The notes beneath the pieces were generated by a model. The model saw only the letters and a program-made list of their open reading frames with translations. It was not told the DNA's origin and searched no databases. DNA of 64,000 nucleotides from Bacteroidales bacterium (GTDB lineage Bacteria; Bacteroidota; Bacteroidia; Bacteroidales; BM520). Positions 32,925-42,195 of this stretch are shown here, one piece after another (position 1 is the stretch's first letter; each line of letters starts with the position of its first letter). A program made the translations under genes and the position numbers. Where the stretch lies: the NCBI GenBank assembly GCA_016285515.1, contig JAEEQW010000010.1:1-64000 (forward strand), in the 5' to 3' direction.

Positions 32925-35192
32925 ATGTTCAAAATACTTCACAAACACTTTTTCACGCATGATACATGCCTTATGGTTATCAATTCACCTCGTATTGCAC
33001 AATCAGTTTTGCCTGGACAGTTTTTGATTGTGAAAGTTGATAAGGAAGGTGAACGCATTCCGCTTACTGTAAGCGATTTTGATGTTAATAAAGGCACTGT
33101 TACCCTTGTCTATAAGGTTGTAGGAAATACGACCCGCGCGATGAGTGAGATGAATGTTGGTGATAGTTTGGAAGATGTAGTGGGACCGCTTGGCAGACCA
33201 TCTGATTTCTATTATCTCACAGATGAACGGCGCAAGTCGAAAAACTATGTGTTTATTGGCGGTGGCATTGGAATTGCACCTATCTATCCGCAGGTCAAGT
33301 GGCTTTATGAACATGGTGTGAAGGTTGACTGTATAATCGGTGCCAGAACCAAATCGATGCTTTTTTATGTCGATGAATTGAGGAAAGTTTCAAATCTGTA
33401 TATTACAACTGACGATAATTCTGGCGAAAATCAAGGACTTGTTACAGATTTGCTCCGCAAGTTGGTTGAGGGCGGGAAGCATTACGATGAGGTTGTGGCA
33501 ATAGGCCCGATGATAATGATGAAGTTTGCTGTAAAGACCGCTCAGGAGTTAGGCATTCACAGTGTGGTGAGTATGAATTCCATTATGGTTGACGGAACAG
33601 GAATGTGTGGTGCATGTCGTGTTTCTGTTAACGGAAAGACCAAGTTCACCTGCATTGACGGTCCTGAATTTGACGGCGCTTTGGTGGATTTCGACAACGC
33701 GATGAAGCGTCAGGCGATGTATGACAACTATGAAACACGGAAAGTCCTTGAGGATGAGGAACGTAATGAAGGTCACGAATGCTTTATAGGCGGTGTTTCG
33801 GATGAAGCCCGTGATAAGAAGAAACGTGTGCCGATATTGGAACAGAAACCTGAAGAAAGAGTTAATAATTTCAATGAGGTCTGTCTCGGGTACAATGCCG
33901 AGGAAGCGATGGAAGAGGCAAGACGCTGTTTGCAGTGCAAGAATCCTCAGTGTGTCAGGAATTGTCCTGTGGAAATCAATATTCCAAAATTTATCAAGGA
34001 AGTTGCTGCCGGCAATTTTGAGGAGGCTGCAAAGATTATAGCCAAAGATTCGGCTTTGCCTGCGGTATGCGGCAGAGTATGTCCGCAGGAAACCCAGTGT
34101 GAAGGCAGTTGTGTTATGGGAAAAAGATTCGAGGCGATCGCTATCGGCAAACTTGAACGTTTTGTTGGCGACTGGTCAAGGGAGCACAATATATCTCTCG
34201 GTACACCGGCACCTTCAAATGGTCACAAAGTTGCAGTAATAGGCAGTGGTCCTGCCGGAATAACATGTGCAAAGGAACTGCTCATGAAAGGTTATGACGT
34301 GACAGTATTTGAGGCTTTGCATGAATACGGCGGTGTGCTTGTCTATGGTATTCCATCATTCCGTCTGCCAAAGGATACGGTAGTGAAAAGCGAAATTGAA
34401 AATGTACGCAGATTTGGTGCCAAATTCGAAAAGGATGTTGTTGTCGGCAGAACTGTCTCAATTGACGATTTGATGGACAATGAAGGCTATGAGGCGGTTT
34501 TCATCGGAACTGGTGCCGGATTACCTATATTTCTGAATATCAAAGGAGATAATTTGTGCGGCGTAGTTTCTGCCAATGAATTTCTTACACGCAACAATCT
34601 TCTGAATGCTTATCGTGAGGGTTATGAAACCCCGAATTATGTCGGTAGGAAAGTTGTGGTTGTCGGTGGTGGTAATGTCGCGATGGATGCGGCCAGAACC
34701 GCTTTGCGTCTTGGAGCCGAAGTGCATGTCGTATATAGACGTTCGGAAGAGGAGTTGCCGGCGAGAGCTGAGGAAGTGCATCATGCCAAGGAAGAAGGCG
34801 TTATATTTAATTTGTTGTGCAATCCTGTTGAAATTATCGGTGATGAAAAGGGCTGGATGAAATCGGTGGTGTGCGTTAAAACTGAACTTGGTGCACCGGA
34901 CGAATCCGGACGCAGAAGACCTGTCGTCATAGAAGGTTCCGAATTCACCTTGGATGCTGACATGATGATTGTTGCTTTGGGAACATCGCCCAATCCGTTG
35001 ATTTCGTCAACCACACCTGGACTGGATACCAACAGATGGAACTGTCTTGTCGCTGATGAAAACGGACAGACAACACGCAAGGGCGTGTTCGCCGGCGGTG
35101 ATGTCGTCAGCGGTTCCGCCACTGTTATCCTCGCTATGGGCGCCGGCAAGAAAGCTGCCGCTGCAATTGACAGGTACATCAGGCAATTATAA
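32925..35192 (+). CDS. NfnAB fusion: NADH-dependent ferredoxin:NADP+ oxidoreductase
   Basis: A 755-residue fusion of both Nfn subunits. Residues 1-270 are NfnA: FAD/NAD-binding FNR-like (GGGIGIAPIYPQ near 112) with a [2Fe-2S] site. The site's residues Asp223, Cys228, Cys231 and Cys243 match the unusual Asp+3Cys ligand spacing known in NfnA. Residues 310-755 are NfnB, a glutamate-synthase-small-subunit-like flavoprotein. It has eight Cys for two [4Fe-4S] clusters (335, 338, 343, 347, 382, 386, 392, 396), FAD motif GSGPAG (440-445) and NADP motif GGGNVAMD. It bifurcates electrons between NADPH, NAD and ferredoxin. It is the first gene of the operon with the hydrogenase-like sensor. Confidence 0.92.
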   Translation: MFKILHKHFFTHDTCLMVINSPRIAQSVLPGQFLIVKVDKEGERIPLTVSDFDVNKGTVTLVYKVVGNTTRAMSEMNVGDSLEDVVGPLGRPSDFYYLTDERRKSKNYVFIGGGIGIAPIYPQVKWLYEHGVKVDCIIGARTKSMLFYVDELRKVSNLYITTDDNSGENQGLVTDLLRKLVEGGKHYDEVVAIGPMIMMKFAVKTAQELGIHSVVSMNSIMVDGTGMCGACRVSVNGKTKFTCIDGPEFDGALVDFDNAMKRQAMYDNYETRKVLEDEERNEGHECFIGGVSDEARDKKKRVPILEQKPEERVNNFNEVCLGYNAEEAMEEARRCLQCKNPQCVRNCPVEINIPKFIKEVAAGNFEEAAKIIAKDSALPAVCGRVCPQETQCEGSCVMGKRFEAIAIGKLERFVGDWSREHNISLGTPAPSNGHKVAVIGSGPAGITCAKELLMKGYDVTVFEALHEYGGVLVYGIPSFRLPKDTVVKSEIENVRRFGAKFEKDVVVGRTVSIDDLMDNEGYEAVFIGTGAGLPIFLNIKGDNLCGVVSANEFLTRNNLLNAYREGYETPNYVGRKVVVVGGGNVAMDAARTALRLGAEVHVVYRRSEEELPARAEEVHHAKEEGVIFNLLCNPVEIIGDEKGWMKSVVCVKTELGAPDESGRRRPVVIEGSEFTLDADMMIVALGTSPNPLISSTTPGLDTNRWNCLVADENGQTTRKGVFAGGDVVSGSATVILAMGAGKKAAAAIDRYIRQL

Positions 35193-35207: not shown

Positions 35208-37076
35208 ATGAATCAACAATTACCGCATCCACCAACACCGCTTTTCAGAATCGATTCCGACAGATGCGTGAACTGTGCAGTACCGGTATGTACAAAGGTA
35301 TGCCCAGTCAGCGCCGTATCAGGAAATTCAGGTAATGCTTACCGGATAGACCCCAACCGCTGTATAGGTTGCGGTGACTGTCTTGTGTACTGTCCCAATG
35401 ATGCTGTAAAGTTCAGAAACTCAATTAATGAGGTAAAAAATCTTATAGCCGGCCACAAGACAGTTGCACTGCTTGACCCGTCAATATCCGGCGAATTTGA
35501 AGACATCACCGACTACCGTAAGTTTGTCGCCATGATAAAATCATTGGGCTTTTCCAATGTCCATGAAGTCGCTTTCGGCGTGGATATGATTGCGGAAAAG
35601 TATAATGATTTGATTAACAACTACCAAGGTAAATATTATATCTTTTCTACCTGCCCGGCTGTTGTCAACTATGTCCGCAAATTCCATCCCGACTTGATAG
35701 ACAACCTTGTTCCTTTCGTTTCACCTTCCATAGCTATGGCGAAATATCTGAGGACCAAATACGACAAGGATACAAAATTTGTTTTTGTGGGACCTTGTAT
35801 TGCGAGTAAGGATGAAGAATTTTATAATGAGGAGAAATATATAGATGCCAATATCACCTTCAGGGAACTGCGACAAATGTTCAATGAGTCTGACATCCAG
35901 GAACTCAAAGTGAAGTTTGACGATTTCGATGAGCCGTATGGCAACAGGGGAGCACGATACCCATTGGTTGACGGCCTTCTGTATGCTGCTGAATGTGAAG
36001 ATAGCCCAGTCTTTTCAATGGCTGCCGGACGCACGTCTCTTGATGCTGTTAAGACTTTCGCCAATGAAATAAACAAGGTGAAAAAACATTTCAACCTGAT
36101 TTATTGTCGCTGCTGCTCTCTTGGTCCAGGAACAACCGGCGGCAACTTTATCATGAGCGACAATGCAGTAAGAAATTATGAGAAGAAACGCTGCGAGATG
36201 CTCAATATTGATCTATGGAAGAAATGGCTTAGGGACTCTTCAAATGTCGATCTGAAGACTTCTTTTGTGGTTGATGACCAGAGAACCCCGGAACCTGCTA
36301 AGGAGAAAATTGAAGAAGTGCTGGATAGAATCGGCCACAACACCAGCGGTTGCCGTCTCTGCGGTTTCAATTCCTGTTTCGATTTTGCGACCAACGTCGC
36401 CAGAGGTCATGTTGATATTTCCGACTGTACATTCTATGAGGTCGAAAATCGTGAAAAGCTTCTTGCCAACCTTGAAAGGGAAAAAGAACAGCTGACGGCT
36501 GAAAGAGACAGATTCCACGATAACGAAATAAAGCTCCATGAAAGTGTTGAACGACTCGATACAGAGGCCCAACTGATGAATATATTGCTTGACAATCTCA
36601 ATTCTGCTGTGGTTGTTGTGGATTCGGAATTGTCGATAGTGAAAACCAACAGTGTATTTGTGAATATGCTTGGCGAAGATGCTGCCGAGATAGCCGAGGT
36701 GATTCCTGAACTTGTCGGTGCGGCCTTCGATGCACTTATGCCGCCGCAAGTTGTCGATCTTTTCAATAATGTGCTGAATGCCAATAAAGTAATCAGCAAT
36801 AAGGATATCATCATAGATGAAAAATTCTACAATATTTCCATTTTCCCAATAGGTGAAGGCAGGATGGCTGGTGGCATTTTTCGTGACATGCATTCTGCCG
36901 GAATACAGAAAGAGCAGATTATCAAGAAGATAAATGATGTGATAGACGAAAACCTGGAAATGGTGCAGAAAATAGGATTCCTTCTTGGTGAAGGTGCATC
37001 ACAAACTGAAAAAATGCTGAATTCAGTCATCAATTCGTATAAGATTATTGGCGGCAAAGGCGAGGATAATAAGTAG
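35208..37076 (+). CDS. HydS-like [FeFe]-hydrogenase-related sensor with PAS domain, degenerate H-cluster site
   Basis: A 622-residue cytosolic protein. It has two [4Fe-4S] ferredoxin motifs (Cys20/23/28/32 and Cys52/55/58/62) and an H-cluster domain (about 75-340). A Fes-type [4Fe-4S] domain (Cys382/385/390/407, spacing CX2CX4CX16C) is followed by a coiled coil (about 412-455) and a PAS domain (about 455-560). This order is that of sensory group C hydrogenases. L1 is FSTCPA (Cys149), with Thr where catalytic enzymes have the proton-relay Cys. L2 is GPCIASKDE (Cys197), with Ser at the usual Lys position. L3 is CRCCSLGPGTTGG: Cys303 aligns, but the bridging Cys aligns with Pro307. H2 binding is therefore doubtful. 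The SpoIIE phosphatase follows after 6 bp. Confidence 0.85.
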   Translation: MNQQLPHPPTPLFRIDSDRCVNCAVPVCTKVCPVSAVSGNSGNAYRIDPNRCIGCGDCLVYCPNDAVKFRNSINEVKNLIAGHKTVALLDPSISGEFEDITDYRKFVAMIKSLGFSNVHEVAFGVDMIAEKYNDLINNYQGKYYIFSTCPAVVNYVRKFHPDLIDNLVPFVSPSIAMAKYLRTKYDKDTKFVFVGPCIASKDEEFYNEEKYIDANITFRELRQMFNESDIQELKVKFDDFDEPYGNRGARYPLVDGLLYAAECEDSPVFSMAAGRTSLDAVKTFANEINKVKKHFNLIYCRCCSLGPGTTGGNFIMSDNAVRNYEKKRCEMLNIDLWKKWLRDSSNVDLKTSFVVDDQRTPEPAKEKIEEVLDRIGHNTSGCRLCGFNSCFDFATNVARGHVDISDCTFYEVENREKLLANLEREKEQLTAERDRFHDNEIKLHESVERLDTEAQLMNILLDNLNSAVVVVDSELSIVKTNSVFVNMLGEDAAEIAEVIPELVGAAFDALMPPQVVDLFNNVLNANKVISNKDIIIDEKFYNISIFPIGEGRMAGGIFRDMHSAGIQKEQIIKKINDVIDENLEMVQKIGFLLGEGASQTEKMLNSVINSYKIIGGKGEDNK

Positions 37077-37082
37077 GACAAG

Positions 37083-38321
37083 ATGGAATCCCAGACAATA
37101 AATACAATTGGAAGAAAGTCCGTACCGGTAAAAAGCAGGGACTTTTTTGTGGAAGTGTTCTGCAAACAACGGAATTACAACGGCGAGCATATCTGTGGCG
37201 ATGTGTTCAGAGTCAAGCGCATAAAAACGGAGAACAGAATGATAATCGTGCTTTCCGATGGCATGGGACATGGCGTCAAGGCTAATGTTATGGCAACCCT
37301 GACATCTTCATTCGCATTGAATTTCACAGAGGAACATAAGGACTTTGAGAGGATTGCTGACATAATAATGAATACGCTGCCGGTAAATGCTGAGACATCA
37401 ACGAGTTATTCCACCTTTACAATTGTCGATATTGATTTTGCAGGCTCTGTCAAGGTGATGGAGTATGACAATCCTCATGCTCTGATTTTACGCGGTTTTG
37501 AAGAGCTTGACATACCATGGTCAAAGTTGGTAATGGATACTGAAAGAAATAAGGGCAAGGTGTTGAAGATGACCACGTTTATCCCGCGCAATGGTGACAG
37601 AATCATATTCGGCTCTGACGGCATTGTGCAGTCAGGTCTTGGAATCCTCAACAACAATGTGGGATGGCCGGTTGAAAAAGTCAAGGAATATGTGTTGCAG
37701 CTGATGATGAACAATCCATACATTTCTGCCAGCGAACTTGCTCAGAAAGTGGTGAACCAGGCTCATAGAAATGACGGTTACGTGTCGAAAGACGATATGA
37801 GCTGTGTTTCGATATATTTCAGAAATCCGCGCGAATGTATGATTTGCACAGGACCACCTTATGACAAGTCACGTGATGTGGAATATGTGCAGACTTTGAA
37901 GAACTTTAAAGGTAAAAAGATAATCTGCGGAGGAACAACTGCTAAAATCATAGCCAAATACCTGAATTTGAATGTCGAAACCGACAGAAATGCAGTTGTT
38001 GACCCAGACTTGCCACCTTTGCATATAATGCCAGGTATCGGAATTGTGACAGAAGGCATACTGACTCTTACAAAGGTCTATAATCTGCTTGAACAGGACA
38101 GCAGCAATTCGCCCGATGCAGATGCGGGACCTGCCGGCAGAATAGTTTCAATCATCCACGAATCCGACATGGTTCATTTTCTTGTAGGGACAAGTCTTAA
38201 CTCAGCACATCAGGATCCGGAATTGCCAGTGGAACTTGAAATACGCAGAACTATCGTGAAACGTATCGCAAAACTGCTTGACGAAGTGTTTATGAAGGAT
38301 GTTAAAATCACATACTATTGA
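37083..38321 (+). CDS. SpoIIE-family PP2C phosphatase with extra C-terminal domain
   Basis: A 412-residue protein. The phosphatase domain (about 20-245) has intact metal-binding acids in VLSDGMGHG, IFGSDGIV and SKDDMSCVSI. From about residue 250 there is a further domain beginning CTGPPYDKSRD, with a KKIICGGTTAKIIAKYL glycine motif, of a type that accompanies hydrogenase-linked SpoIIE proteins. The likely substrate is a phosphorylated anti-sigma-factor antagonist or another Ser/Thr-phosphoprotein. The gene follows the PAS-containing hydrogenase-like sensor by 6 bp, so it is the probable output of that sensor. No kinase, STAS protein or sigma factor is adjacent. Confidence 0.85.
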   Translation: MESQTINTIGRKSVPVKSRDFFVEVFCKQRNYNGEHICGDVFRVKRIKTENRMIIVLSDGMGHGVKANVMATLTSSFALNFTEEHKDFERIADIIMNTLPVNAETSTSYSTFTIVDIDFAGSVKVMEYDNPHALILRGFEELDIPWSKLVMDTERNKGKVLKMTTFIPRNGDRIIFGSDGIVQSGLGILNNNVGWPVEKVKEYVLQLMMNNPYISASELAQKVVNQAHRNDGYVSKDDMSCVSIYFRNPRECMICTGPPYDKSRDVEYVQTLKNFKGKKIICGGTTAKIIAKYLNLNVETDRNAVVDPDLPPLHIMPGIGIVTEGILTLTKVYNLLEQDSSNSPDADAGPAGRIVSIIHESDMVHFLVGTSLNSAHQDPELPVELEIRRTIVKRIAKLLDEVFMKDVKITYY

Positions 38322-39268: not shown

Positions 39269-40168
39269 ATGATAAAAAAATTAGATGATCTTTTTGATGA
39301 ATTGAAATCACGTCCTACCAAGAGAATTATAGGAGCATATGCTTGTGACTCTCATACTATTGGGGCAATTTATAACGCGGTAAAAAAAGGTATCGTAAGT
39401 GCAACGCTTGTTGGCGATGAGAAAAAAATTGCCGATGTTTGTAAAAGTGAAAATATTGACATTTCGTTGTTTGACATTGTAAATGAGCCTGTTGACACAA
39501 AGGCTGCAACAAAGGCTGTCGATATGATAAACAAGGGTGAGGGTGATATTTTGATGAAAGGCACGCTGAGTACCGACAGATATATGAGAGCTATTCTCAA
39601 CAAGGAAAACGGGCTTGTTCCACCTAAGGCTGTGCTTAGCCATGTAACGGTTATCGAGAATCCGGCATACCATAAACTCCTCATAGTGGGTGATGTCGCT
39701 GTGATTCCGGCTCCGGACCTTGACCAGAAGATAGCTATAACCAATTATCTTATTCGTACAGCTCATGCTCTCGGCATTGACAAGCCTAAGGTGGCAGCCA
39801 TTGCTGCAACTGAACAGATGCTGCCAAAAATGCCGGCTTGCGTTGATGCCGCTATCATTTCAAAGATGTCAGACAGAGGTCAGATAAAGGGAGCCATCGT
39901 TGATGGACCTTTGGCTTTCGATGTGGCTATCGACAAGGAAAGTGCTGAGATAAAGGGTGTTCAGAGCCCTGTTGCAGGCGATGCCGACTGTCTGCTGTTC
40001 CCGAACATCGAGACAGGCAATGTCTTCTACAAGACAAGCACAAAGTTATGCAAGGCTGAACTGGGTGCATTTGTGGCAGGTGCAAAATGCCCGTGTATCC
40101 TATCATCACGTGGAGATACAGTCAACACTAAATTATATTCAATTGCAATAGCTGCAATGCTCGCATAA
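39269..40168 (+). CDS. ptb: Phosphate butyryltransferase, copy 1
   Basis: A 299-residue phosphate acetyl/butyryltransferase-family enzyme (PF01515). It exchanges CoA for phosphate on butyryl-CoA or a branched-chain acyl-CoA. Conserved features are GDILMKGTLSTD, the PAPDLDQKIAI segment, GAIVDGPLAFDVA and GDADCLLFPNIETGN. It is followed by a paralogue with TAATG stop-start coupling and then butyrate kinase. The two copies differ at many positions around the acyl site, so they may differ in acyl preference. Confidence 0.9.
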   Translation: MIKKLDDLFDELKSRPTKRIIGAYACDSHTIGAIYNAVKKGIVSATLVGDEKKIADVCKSENIDISLFDIVNEPVDTKAATKAVDMINKGEGDILMKGTLSTDRYMRAILNKENGLVPPKAVLSHVTVIENPAYHKLLIVGDVAVIPAPDLDQKIAITNYLIRTAHALGIDKPKVAAIAATEQMLPKMPACVDAAIISKMSDRGQIKGAIVDGPLAFDVAIDKESAEIKGVQSPVAGDADCLLFPNIETGNVFYKTSTKLCKAELGAFVAGAKCPCILSSRGDTVNTKLYSIAIAAMLA

Positions 40169-41085
40169 TGGAACCTATCAGATCTTTAACGGAACTGACT
40201 GACTTTCTCAAAAGTAAGAATCAGAAATTTAAGATAGCAGTGGCGTGCGGGCATGACTCAAATACGATTCATGCCCTGCATGAGGCTGCAAATCAGGGAT
40301 TTGTACATCCAATTCTCGTTGGAGACGAACAACAGATTAACGATATTGTGAAAGCTGATGGCCTCAACGGTAACCTCTTTGAAACAATAAATGAGAAAAG
40401 TGATTCCAAAGCTATGGACATTGCTCTGTCAATGGTGAAAAACGATGAGGCTGACATTCTGATGAAAGGTCTTATCGGTACCGACAAATTTCTTCATGCT
40501 GTCCTTAACAAGGAAAAAGGCCTGATGAAACCAAAGGCAGTGTTGAGTTATGTCTGTGCCATAGAGGTCCCGAAATATCATAAGCTGTTGTTTATAAGCG
40601 ATACTGCTGTAATTCCTTTCCCCGATCTTGACCAGAAGATTGCCATGTTGAAATATGCTGTGAAAATGGCTAACCGTTTTGGTATCAATCGTCCGAAAGT
40701 GGCTTTGATAGGAGCTTCAGAGAAGGTGAGCAAGGGAATTTCTGATTCACAGGACTATGCAATAATGTGCAAGATGGTTCAACGCGGACAGTTGCCAGAC
40801 TGCATCATTGACGGTCCGCTTGATATCTTTCTCGCATGTGATAGGAACAGCGTTGAAATCAAGGGCGTTGACACACCGATAAACGGTGATGCCGACATTC
40901 TTCTGTTTCCCAACCTTGAGGCTTGTAACAGTTTCTACAAAGGGCTCATGCTTTTCGCAGACGGTGAACTTGGCGGTCTGATTCAGGGTACCGAAAAACC
41001 TGTGGTCGTAATGTCACGCAGCGAAAGCGAAAAATCAAAATATTATTGTATAGAAATGGCATGTATTGAATGCCTGAATAGTTAG
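40168..41085 (+). CDS. ptb: Phosphate butyryltransferase, copy 2 (tandem paralogue)
   Basis: A 305-residue PF01515 enzyme collinear with the preceding gene and clearly homologous to it along its whole length (ADILMKGLIGTD, FPDLDQKIAMLK, IIDGPLDIFLA, GDADILLFPNLEACN). By eye roughly 40 per cent of positions are identical, so this is an old duplication rather than a recent one. The start overlaps the copy 1 stop by one base. Butyrate kinase follows after 24 bp. The active-site stretches look intact, so I do not regard it as a pseudogene. Confidence 0.9.
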   Translation: MEPIRSLTELTDFLKSKNQKFKIAVACGHDSNTIHALHEAANQGFVHPILVGDEQQINDIVKADGLNGNLFETINEKSDSKAMDIALSMVKNDEADILMKGLIGTDKFLHAVLNKEKGLMKPKAVLSYVCAIEVPKYHKLLFISDTAVIPFPDLDQKIAMLKYAVKMANRFGINRPKVALIGASEKVSKGISDSQDYAIMCKMVQRGQLPDCIIDGPLDIFLACDRNSVEIKGVDTPINGDADILLFPNLEACNSFYKGLMLFADGELGGLIQGTEKPVVVMSRSESEKSKYYCIEMACIECLNS

Positions 41086-41109
41086 TAACCAATATTTCAG
41101 ATAATAACT

Positions 41110-42195
41110 ATGTTTAGAATTTTAGCAATAAACCCCGGGTCAACATCAACAAAGATTGCCGTATATGATGATGACAAGGAAATATTCATAAAAACACTCA
41201 GACACTCTTCTGAGGAAATATCCAAATATGAAAGAGTAACCGATCAGTTTAATTTTAGAAAGAAACTTATCGTAAGTGAAATTGAAAAAGCCGGAATACC
41301 TGTGGATTCGCTCAATATGATAGTCGGACGCGGCGGATTGATCAAACCTATCCCAAGTGGTGTCTATGAGGTGAGCGATGACCTCAAGGATGACCTGCTG
41401 ACTTGCCGTCAGGGTGAACACGCAAGCAACCTTGGCGGACTTATAGCAGATGAAATAGCAGATGATATCAACATCAAACATGGCAACGAAGATGTGAAAG
41501 CTGTTATTGTTGACCCAGTCGTTGTCGATGAACTACAGGATGTGGCAAGGATTTCCGGTCACCCGCTTTTCGAAAGGAAGTCAATATTCCACGCACTGAA
41601 CCAGAAGGCAATAGGTCGTCAGCATGCAAAGAAACTCGGTAAAAAATACGAAGACCTCAACCTTATCATAGCACACATGGGTGGTGGCATTTCCATCGGC
41701 GCACACTGCAAAGGCAAGGTCATTGATGTCAATAATGCTCTCGATGGCGAAGGCCCGTTCACACCGGAACGTTCAGGCACATTGCCTGCCGGACAACTTG
41801 TAAAACTCTGTTTCAGCGGTGAATACACCCAGAAAGAAATACAGACATTTATTAAAGGCAAAGGCGGACTTGTTGGTCATATTGGTACCAATAGCGCTCT
41901 TGAACTTGATGAAAGAGCAGACAAAGGTGATGAAAAATGCAGGCTGATAAGAGATGCAATGTCATATCAGGTCGGCAAAACCATCGGAGAAATGGCAACA
42001 GTCCTCAAGGGAGATGTTGACGGCATTCTTATAACCGGCGGTATTGCATATTCAAAATATATTGTGAACTACATTGCTGATATGGTAAAGTTCATAGCAC
42101 CTGTAACCGCTTATCCTGGCGAAGACGAAATGGGCGCTCTTGCTTCAAATGCGCTTATGGTTCATTACGGTGAACTCAAGTTGCAGACATATTAA
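41110..42195 (+). CDS. buk: Butyrate kinase
   Basis: A 361-residue ASKHA kinase that converts butyryl-phosphate and ADP to butyrate and ATP, the energy-conserving last step of the Ptb/Buk route. Signatures are ILAINPGSTSTKIAVYDD at the N-terminus, VVDPVVVDELQDVARISG, LIIAHMGGGISIGAHCKGKV, and DGILITGGIAYSKYI. Branched-chain acid kinase activity is an alternative. It lies at the end of the ptb-ptb-buk unit. Lysine aminomutase genes at 58-62 kb suggest amino acids as a butyrate source. Confidence 0.95.
   Translation: MFRILAINPGSTSTKIAVYDDDKEIFIKTLRHSSEEISKYERVTDQFNFRKKLIVSEIEKAGIPVDSLNMIVGRGGLIKPIPSGVYEVSDDLKDDLLTCRQGEHASNLGGLIADEIADDINIKHGNEDVKAVIVDPVVVDELQDVARISGHPLFERKSIFHALNQKAIGRQHAKKLGKKYEDLNLIIAHMGGGISIGAHCKGKVIDVNNALDGEGPFTPERSGTLPAGQLVKLCFSGEYTQKEIQTFIKGKGGLVGHIGTNSALELDERADKGDEKCRLIRDAMSYQVGKTIGEMATVLKGDVDGILITGGIAYSKYIVNYIADMVKFIAPVTAYPGEDEMGALASNALMVHYGELKLQTY

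Follow-up and report, generated by a model that had tools for sequence, protein, structure and literature searches.

A group C-type [FeFe]-hydrogenase-like sensor of Bacteroidales that retains the bridging cysteine and may have dispensed with the [2Fe] site

Introduction

The way in which sensory [FeFe]-hydrogenases signal is debated, as the signal might be carried by the H-cluster or by the accessory clusters (PMC13104023). A gene found in a 64,000-nucleotide stretch of DNA from a Bacteroidales bacterium (the window) belongs to a subfamily that amounts to a natural mutant series, in which the H-domain is intact, has shifted ligands or has none, and the accessory clusters, the PAS domain and the phosphatase stay constant. 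A comparison of its members would directly show the contribution of the H-cluster. In a first-pass annotation, the product of this gene was said to carry Pro307 where the cysteine that bridges the two parts of the H-cluster should be, and was proposed on this ground to have lost the [2Fe] site and become a pure Fe-S redox or O2 sensor. The locus therefore raises two questions: is the bridging cysteine missing, and has this hydrogenase fold left hydrogenase chemistry?

Domain organization and descent of the sensor

Sequence and translation establish a genuine 622-aa open reading frame, in which Pfam recognizes two ferredoxin-type sites, an FeS domain (PF04060) and, at residues 84-306, the hydrogenase domain Fe_hyd_lg_C (PF02906, E 1.3e-38). 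In structural alignments, residues 1-356 of an AlphaFold2 model, which was built on 33 family members and has a mean pLDDT of 82.9, match [FeFe]-hydrogenases with Z up to 35. Beyond the H-domain come a domain with four cysteines, a helix of 55 residues and an alpha/beta domain that resembles PAS. Pfam makes no PAS call in the window protein itself, where the PAS-like order of elements is seen only in the model, and PAS_8 scores above cut-off in two homologues (L121 and L100). A PAS domain is the hallmark of group C. The parts of the sensor, outside its H-cluster motifs, are as follows.

35208..37076, + strand: group C-type [FeFe]-hydrogenase-like sensor, 622 aa (PF02906, Fer4 and FeS matches; hydrogenase fold in the model)
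35265..35306, + strand: first [4Fe-4S] ferredoxin site, formed by C20, C23, C28 and C32 and carrying two inserted residues particular to the genus (Pfam, alignment)
35361..35396, + strand: second [4Fe-4S] ferredoxin site, C52-C55-C58-C62 (Pfam; essentially invariant in 158 homologues)
36351..36428, + strand: C-terminal Cx2Cx4Cx16C [4Fe-4S] site, C382, C385, C390 and C407 (Pfam, alignment)
36429..36593, + strand: long signalling helix, residues 408-462 (AlphaFold2 model)
36606..36887, + strand: PAS-like domain, residues 467-560 (beta/alpha order in the model; PAS_8 in homologues)

The accessory sites had been described as intact, and this holds for the second ferredoxin site and the C-terminal site, whose cysteines are essentially invariant among the 158 family sequences. 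The first ferredoxin site departs from it by two extra residues, CVNCAVPVCTKVC, which the homologue alignment confines to the window genus; C23 of this site is also the sole variable accessory cysteine of the family, and 37 of the 158 have Ser, Asn or Ala there. The C-terminal cysteines match exactly the Cx2Cx4Cx16C motif by which groups C and D are recognized (PMC8163306).

A 97% identical copy with the same L3 motif is present in an independent metagenome-assembled genome (MAG) of the same genus, and the H-domain dN/dS between the two genes is 0.018, which together argue that the sensor gene is not an error. The nearest named relative, at 97%, comes from a water-buffalo abomasum MAG. Orthologues were found in about 76 of the 247 Bacteroidales genomes searched, and a scan of 84,980 species with the family alignment returned 474 related stretches, 80 of which were kept, all 80 from Bacteroidota. 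On a tree from which the Thermotoga maritima sensor TmHydS itself was left out, the subfamily is monophyletic (99/97) and lies within a group C clade (97/97) that includes a C3-like PAS sensor and sensors linked to histidine kinases (HK). By architecture, cluster motif and phylogeny, the window protein is thus a PAS-type sensor of group C. A congener carries two diverged sensor copies on one contig (L062, G220:C31), whose identities to the window protein are 66% and 35%.

The architecture is that of TmHydS (group C/M2f), which likewise has two N-terminal ferredoxin clusters, an H-domain, a Cx2Cx4Cx16C cluster and a PAS domain, lacks C299 and has Gly at the position of M353 (PMC10055695, PMC8163306). 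TmHydS binds [2Fe] despite the loss of C299 and M353, and it retains cofactor-stabilizing residues (PMC10055695).

Register of the H-cluster motifs

The three H-cluster motifs, numbered against the hydrogenase CpI, were placed by alignment.

35646..35666, + strand: L1, S147-T148-C149-P150; Cys149 is the cubane ligand C300 of CpI and Thr148 stands at the proton-relay position C299 (multiple alignment)
35790..35810, + strand: L2, G195-P-C197-I-A-S200-K201; Cys197 is C355, with Gly at M353 and Ser at K358 (multiple alignment)
36102..36137, + strand: L3, Y299-C300-R-C302-C303-S-L-G-P307-G-T-T (family, group B/C and structural alignments)

The L3 letters had been read correctly, as had the Thr that precedes the L1 ligand and the Ser at the usual Lys of L2; the group A marks C299, Met353 and Met497 are replaced by Thr, Gly and Ile. 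It is the register of L3 that differs from the earlier reading, since Cys303 occupies the position of the bridging C503, Cys300 lies one residue closer to it than C499 does, and Pro307 falls at the position of CpI G507. The typical L3 of homologues is [FY]-[FY]-C-[EDQN]-G-C-[LIM]-M-G-P-G-[TM]-S, and as GPG comes after the last cysteine in these proteins, Cys303 is that cysteine in the window protein. This GPG after a conserved cysteine is a family signature, with P307 in 136 and the bridging Cys in 134 of 158 members. In group B and C3-like hydrogenases, too, proline comes after the Gly that follows an ordinary, intact bridging cysteine: L3 is T-C-Q-D-S-C-V-N-G-P-C in L059, a conventional group C sensor, and A-C-E-G-G-C-L-N-G-P-L in the group B enzyme L056.

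Structural alignment leads to the same register. Aligned with DdHydAB (1hfe_L), the model can be followed as far as its residue 305, which corresponds to chain residue 384; Cys303 thus coincides with Cys382, the bridging ligand of that enzyme. L3 belongs to the loops in which the model is weakest (pLDDT about 54-62) and some rows of the structural alignment are off by one residue, but none puts Pro307 at the bridging cysteine. Other comparisons stopped short of L3: the profile-profile alignment of the family with HydA ended at residue 266 (in open-frame numbering, which includes 5 residues before the Met), and pairwise alignments from a PDB search near residue 261. All that speaks for a proline in place of the bridging cysteine is the raw spacing of the downstream TTGG glycines, which is not conserved in the family. 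The first-pass annotation had itself named an alignment with Cys300, Cys302 or Cys303 at the bridging position as grounds for rejection, and the alignments put Cys303 there. We regard that explanation as very improbable, and the argument that [2Fe] was lost because of Pro307 fails with it.

Loss of Lys358 and altered spacing of L3

Lys358 holds a cyanide of the [2Fe] site. This residue is Lys in all 26 canonical group A HydA proteins, all 22 HK-linked group C sensors, all 4 group D-like proteins, the group B enzyme and the C3-like sensor, and it is kept in 1 and lost in 157 of the 158 Bacteroidales subfamily members, Ser200 being its replacement in the window protein. A fourth class of HydA-like proteins, class B, also varies at this position. 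These class B proteins (L064, L065, L067, L070, L121 and other loci) are about 580 aa long and are paired with an HK-linked sensor; the C299 relay is missing in about half, and 7 of 27 have Arg at K358.

The second departure is in L3, in which canonical proteins have a cysteine at -4 from the bridging Cys (CxxxC) and the subfamily has Tyr or Phe at -4 and Cys at -3 (CxxC). In the window protein, Tyr299 takes the C499 position, so the canonical cubane-ligand spacing is not kept, and a third L3 cysteine, C302, has been added in the window genus. About 30 homologues have Asn, Asp or His at -3 instead of Cys, and three subfamily members regain a Cys at -4 through one extra L3 residue.

These features separate the window protein from TmHydS, in which the cubane ligands and [2Fe]-stabilizing residues are kept; the window protein has Ser at K358 and L3 ligands in CxxC spacing, and some of its relatives have lost H-cluster ligands. 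The HK-linked sensors of the same bacteria (class T) form a sister lineage with the same CxxC-type L3 and GPG in most members, and since Cys is at -3 in 21 of 21 of them (and also at -4 in 18), the shortened L3 loop is common to both lineages. Unlike the window subfamily, however, the HK-linked sensors keep K358 in all cases, have Asp at C299 in nearly all, and direct their output through HisKA/HATPase domains of the same chain.

Loss of H-cluster ligands among relatives

The three main cubane ligands, including the bridging Cys, are kept in 133 of the 158 homologues. Loss of individual cysteines among the 158 affects C300 in 17 sequences, C355 in 25, the bridging Cys in 24 and the first Cys of L3 in 53. 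When a tree of 99 rows was built with the motif columns excluded, cubane or bridging ligands proved to have been lost three separate times, in 25 sequences, of which 24 have lost the bridging Cys. Family f7 (22 rows) has Leu, Val or Ile for C355 and Phe for the bridging Cys, and most of its members also have Asp for C300; in family f42 (two genomes) all H-cluster cysteines are gone; and in one f94 genome C355 is Ser. The bridging Cys is therefore among the lost ligands in two of the three lineages, and the residues that replace the cysteines include Asp, Leu, Phe and Ala, among others.

It might be asked whether these H-domains are decaying remnants, with signalling carried by the ferredoxin and PAS parts only. 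The repeated loss of ligands in three lineages would fit such a relic, but the ligand-less genes have full-length open reading frames, the model of one of them (L121) retains the hydrogenase fold with Z 38, and H-domain dN/dS is 0.05-0.08 for most ligand-less pairs and 0.17 for one pair with few changes, values that are rough because dS is often saturated. With these values, and the still lower ratio of the window gene, the H-domain is under strong purifying selection despite ligand loss, pseudogenes are ruled out, and a functionless relic is an improbable account of the domain.

Phosphatase partner and gene neighbourhood

The genes on either side of the sensor provide a context for its function.

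32925..35192, + strand: NfnAB-like fused ferredoxin:NAD(P)H oxidoreductase (PRK12778), the upstream neighbour in the window genus
37083..38321, + strand: SpoIIE/PP2C-type phosphatase, 412 aa (domain search), 6 nt downstream of the sensor

A phosphatase lies directly downstream of the sensor in 90 of 104 homologues, and this partner was kept in all 23 ligand-less relatives checked. In most relatives' loci with enough flanking sequence, the sensor-phosphatase pair and the HydC and HydB genes lie in divergent orientation, and HydA-like genes, an HK-linked sensor, a response regulator or Rex are often nearby, an arrangement that points to control of fermentative hydrogen metabolism. In the window genus, the NfnAB-like gene adjoins the sensor in place of HydC/HydB. 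Downstream of the pair, the window also contains two adjacent diverged phosphate-butyryltransferase genes followed by a butyrate kinase gene (39269-42195). Among open-access papers, none was found on SpoIIE proteins with sensory FeFe hydrogenases.

Maturases and canonical HydA

No HydE, HydF or HydG scored over threshold in the window genome, which is 98.4% complete, and no HydF or HydG was found in a congener (G249); both genomes carry a canonical HydA with intact active-site motifs. The same holds for other families, as HydF and HydG were not found in f43 or f50 although HydA is present (canonical with intact motifs in f43, and a less typical best hydrogenase in f50). In f22, HydG was found in 0 of 12 and HydF in 0 of 11 genomes, and canonical HydA with intact motifs in 10 of the 11 searched; several f22 genomes with HydA and no detected maturases are 99-100% complete. 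HydE was looked for in only part of the maturase-less genomes. Either an unknown maturation route or apo-hydrogenases could account for canonical HydA where these maturases were not detected, and because the same genomes keep HydA with intact motifs, the lack of HydEFG cannot alone prove that the sensor is without [2Fe].

Across Bacteroidales, HydF is present in 69 of 76 genomes with the sensor versus 77 of 171 without it (p 1e-12), but this association is confounded, since the adjacency of the sensor to HydABC explains it too. A link between maturase loss and ligand loss was also looked for and not seen: maturase-less genomes (G000, G043, G050, G136, G154 and G233) keep the ligands, and the ligand-less lineages sampled (G007, G042, G094, G153 and G223) have HydF and HydG.

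A subclass of canonical HydA has the motif T-S-C-S-P-G-W, in which the C300 cubane ligand is Ser and the relay C299 is kept (L034, L036, L037, L042, L046, L055, L078, L091, L092, L279-L283, L285, L286 and L289); this suggests a serine-ligated [4Fe-4S]H in these proteins.

Possible function of the H-domain

We lean towards a view of the window protein as a redox sensor of group C (PAS-type, M2f) descent, in which a [4Fe-4S] cluster would occupy the former cubane site and a working [2Fe] is probably lacking; such a sensor would relay the redox state of the ferredoxin pool to its PAS domain and the phosphatase. The sensor and the adjoining SpoIIE-type phosphatase would act as a two-gene module. 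Electrons from ferredoxin or H2 may enter through the two N-terminal [4Fe-4S] clusters and reach an H-domain predicted to hold a [4Fe-4S] cluster through C149, C197, C303 and probably C300 or C302. A redox change could then pass through the C-terminal [4Fe-4S] domain and the long helix to the PAS domain, which would switch the partner phosphatase. The phosphatase, in turn, may regulate fermentative redox disposal, its neighbours being a hydrogenase operon in most relatives and NfnAB-like and butyrate genes here.

The proposal in the first-pass annotation that the fold was repurposed for Fe-S sensing thus stays plausible for the window protein on grounds other than Pro307, namely the loss of K358, the altered L3 spacing, the lack of detected HydEFG in its genome and the disappearance of ligands in three lineages; although the bridging cysteine is present, the [2Fe] site is probably either absent or no longer needed. 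For some relatives, a departure from hydrogenase chemistry is well supported. Nothing in these data points specifically to O2 as the signal. The broader claim that the whole Bacteroidales subfamily, the window protein included, no longer uses [2Fe] and consists of pure Fe-S redox (or other ligand) sensors that control a phosphatase, having shed ligands at least three times and in some lineages to the point where no H-cluster is possible, appears to us evenly poised.

The same protein could instead be a conventional H2 sensor of group C whose H-cluster is complete: C149, C197, C300 and C303 would be the cubane ligands, with C303 as the bridge to [2Fe], and the altered second sphere would do no more than lower activity, as it does in TmHydS. 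Bridging and cubane cysteines are indeed present in the alignments, the sensor co-occurs strongly with HydF, TmHydS and TamHydS hold [2Fe] without C299 and the methionines (PMC10055695, PMC8163306), and the retention of the three main cubane ligands in most homologues is what continued use of a full H-cluster would predict, which counts against a protein without working [2Fe]. This H2-sensor explanation is nonetheless less probable, as K358 is lost in all but one subfamily member, whereas the canonical, group B and remaining sensory H-domains examined retain it, L3 spacing has changed, the window genome and its congener yielded no HydEFG and no HydF/HydG, respectively, and other subfamily members do without the ligands altogether.

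Hydrogenase folds that work outside hydrogenase chemistry have a precedent in the eukaryotic hydrogenase-like Fe-S assembly factor Nar1/IOP1/CIAO3, which has a [4Fe-4S]H-type site, no [2Fe] and no maturases (PMC12621388). The likeness is at the level of the fold, which is where the two were compared, as Nar1/IOP1/CIAO3 acts in a different pathway and has a different domain layout with no PAS domain and no phosphatase partner; the window protein, for its part, ends in ...GGKGEDNK and has no C-terminal Trp of the Nar1/CIAO3 CIA-targeting type. If [2Fe] is gone from the window protein, it would be a bacterial counterpart to Nar1, with a hydrogenase fold retained for a non-hydrogenase job. The family is also a caution against taking group C matches in gut and rumen metagenomes for H2 sensors.

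Group D (M2e) offers a further comparison, since TamHydS is a putative sensor that shares the C-terminal cluster motif and likewise lacks the proton relay of group A (PMC8163306). Unlike the window protein, TamHydS has no PAS domain, and the group D-like proteins checked keep the canonical L3 spacing and Lys358. The window genome separately encodes one such protein of 452 aa (L003:6-3191, G000:C6), and its gene adjoins a HATPase anti-sigma-like gene, DRTGG-like genes and a PHP gene.
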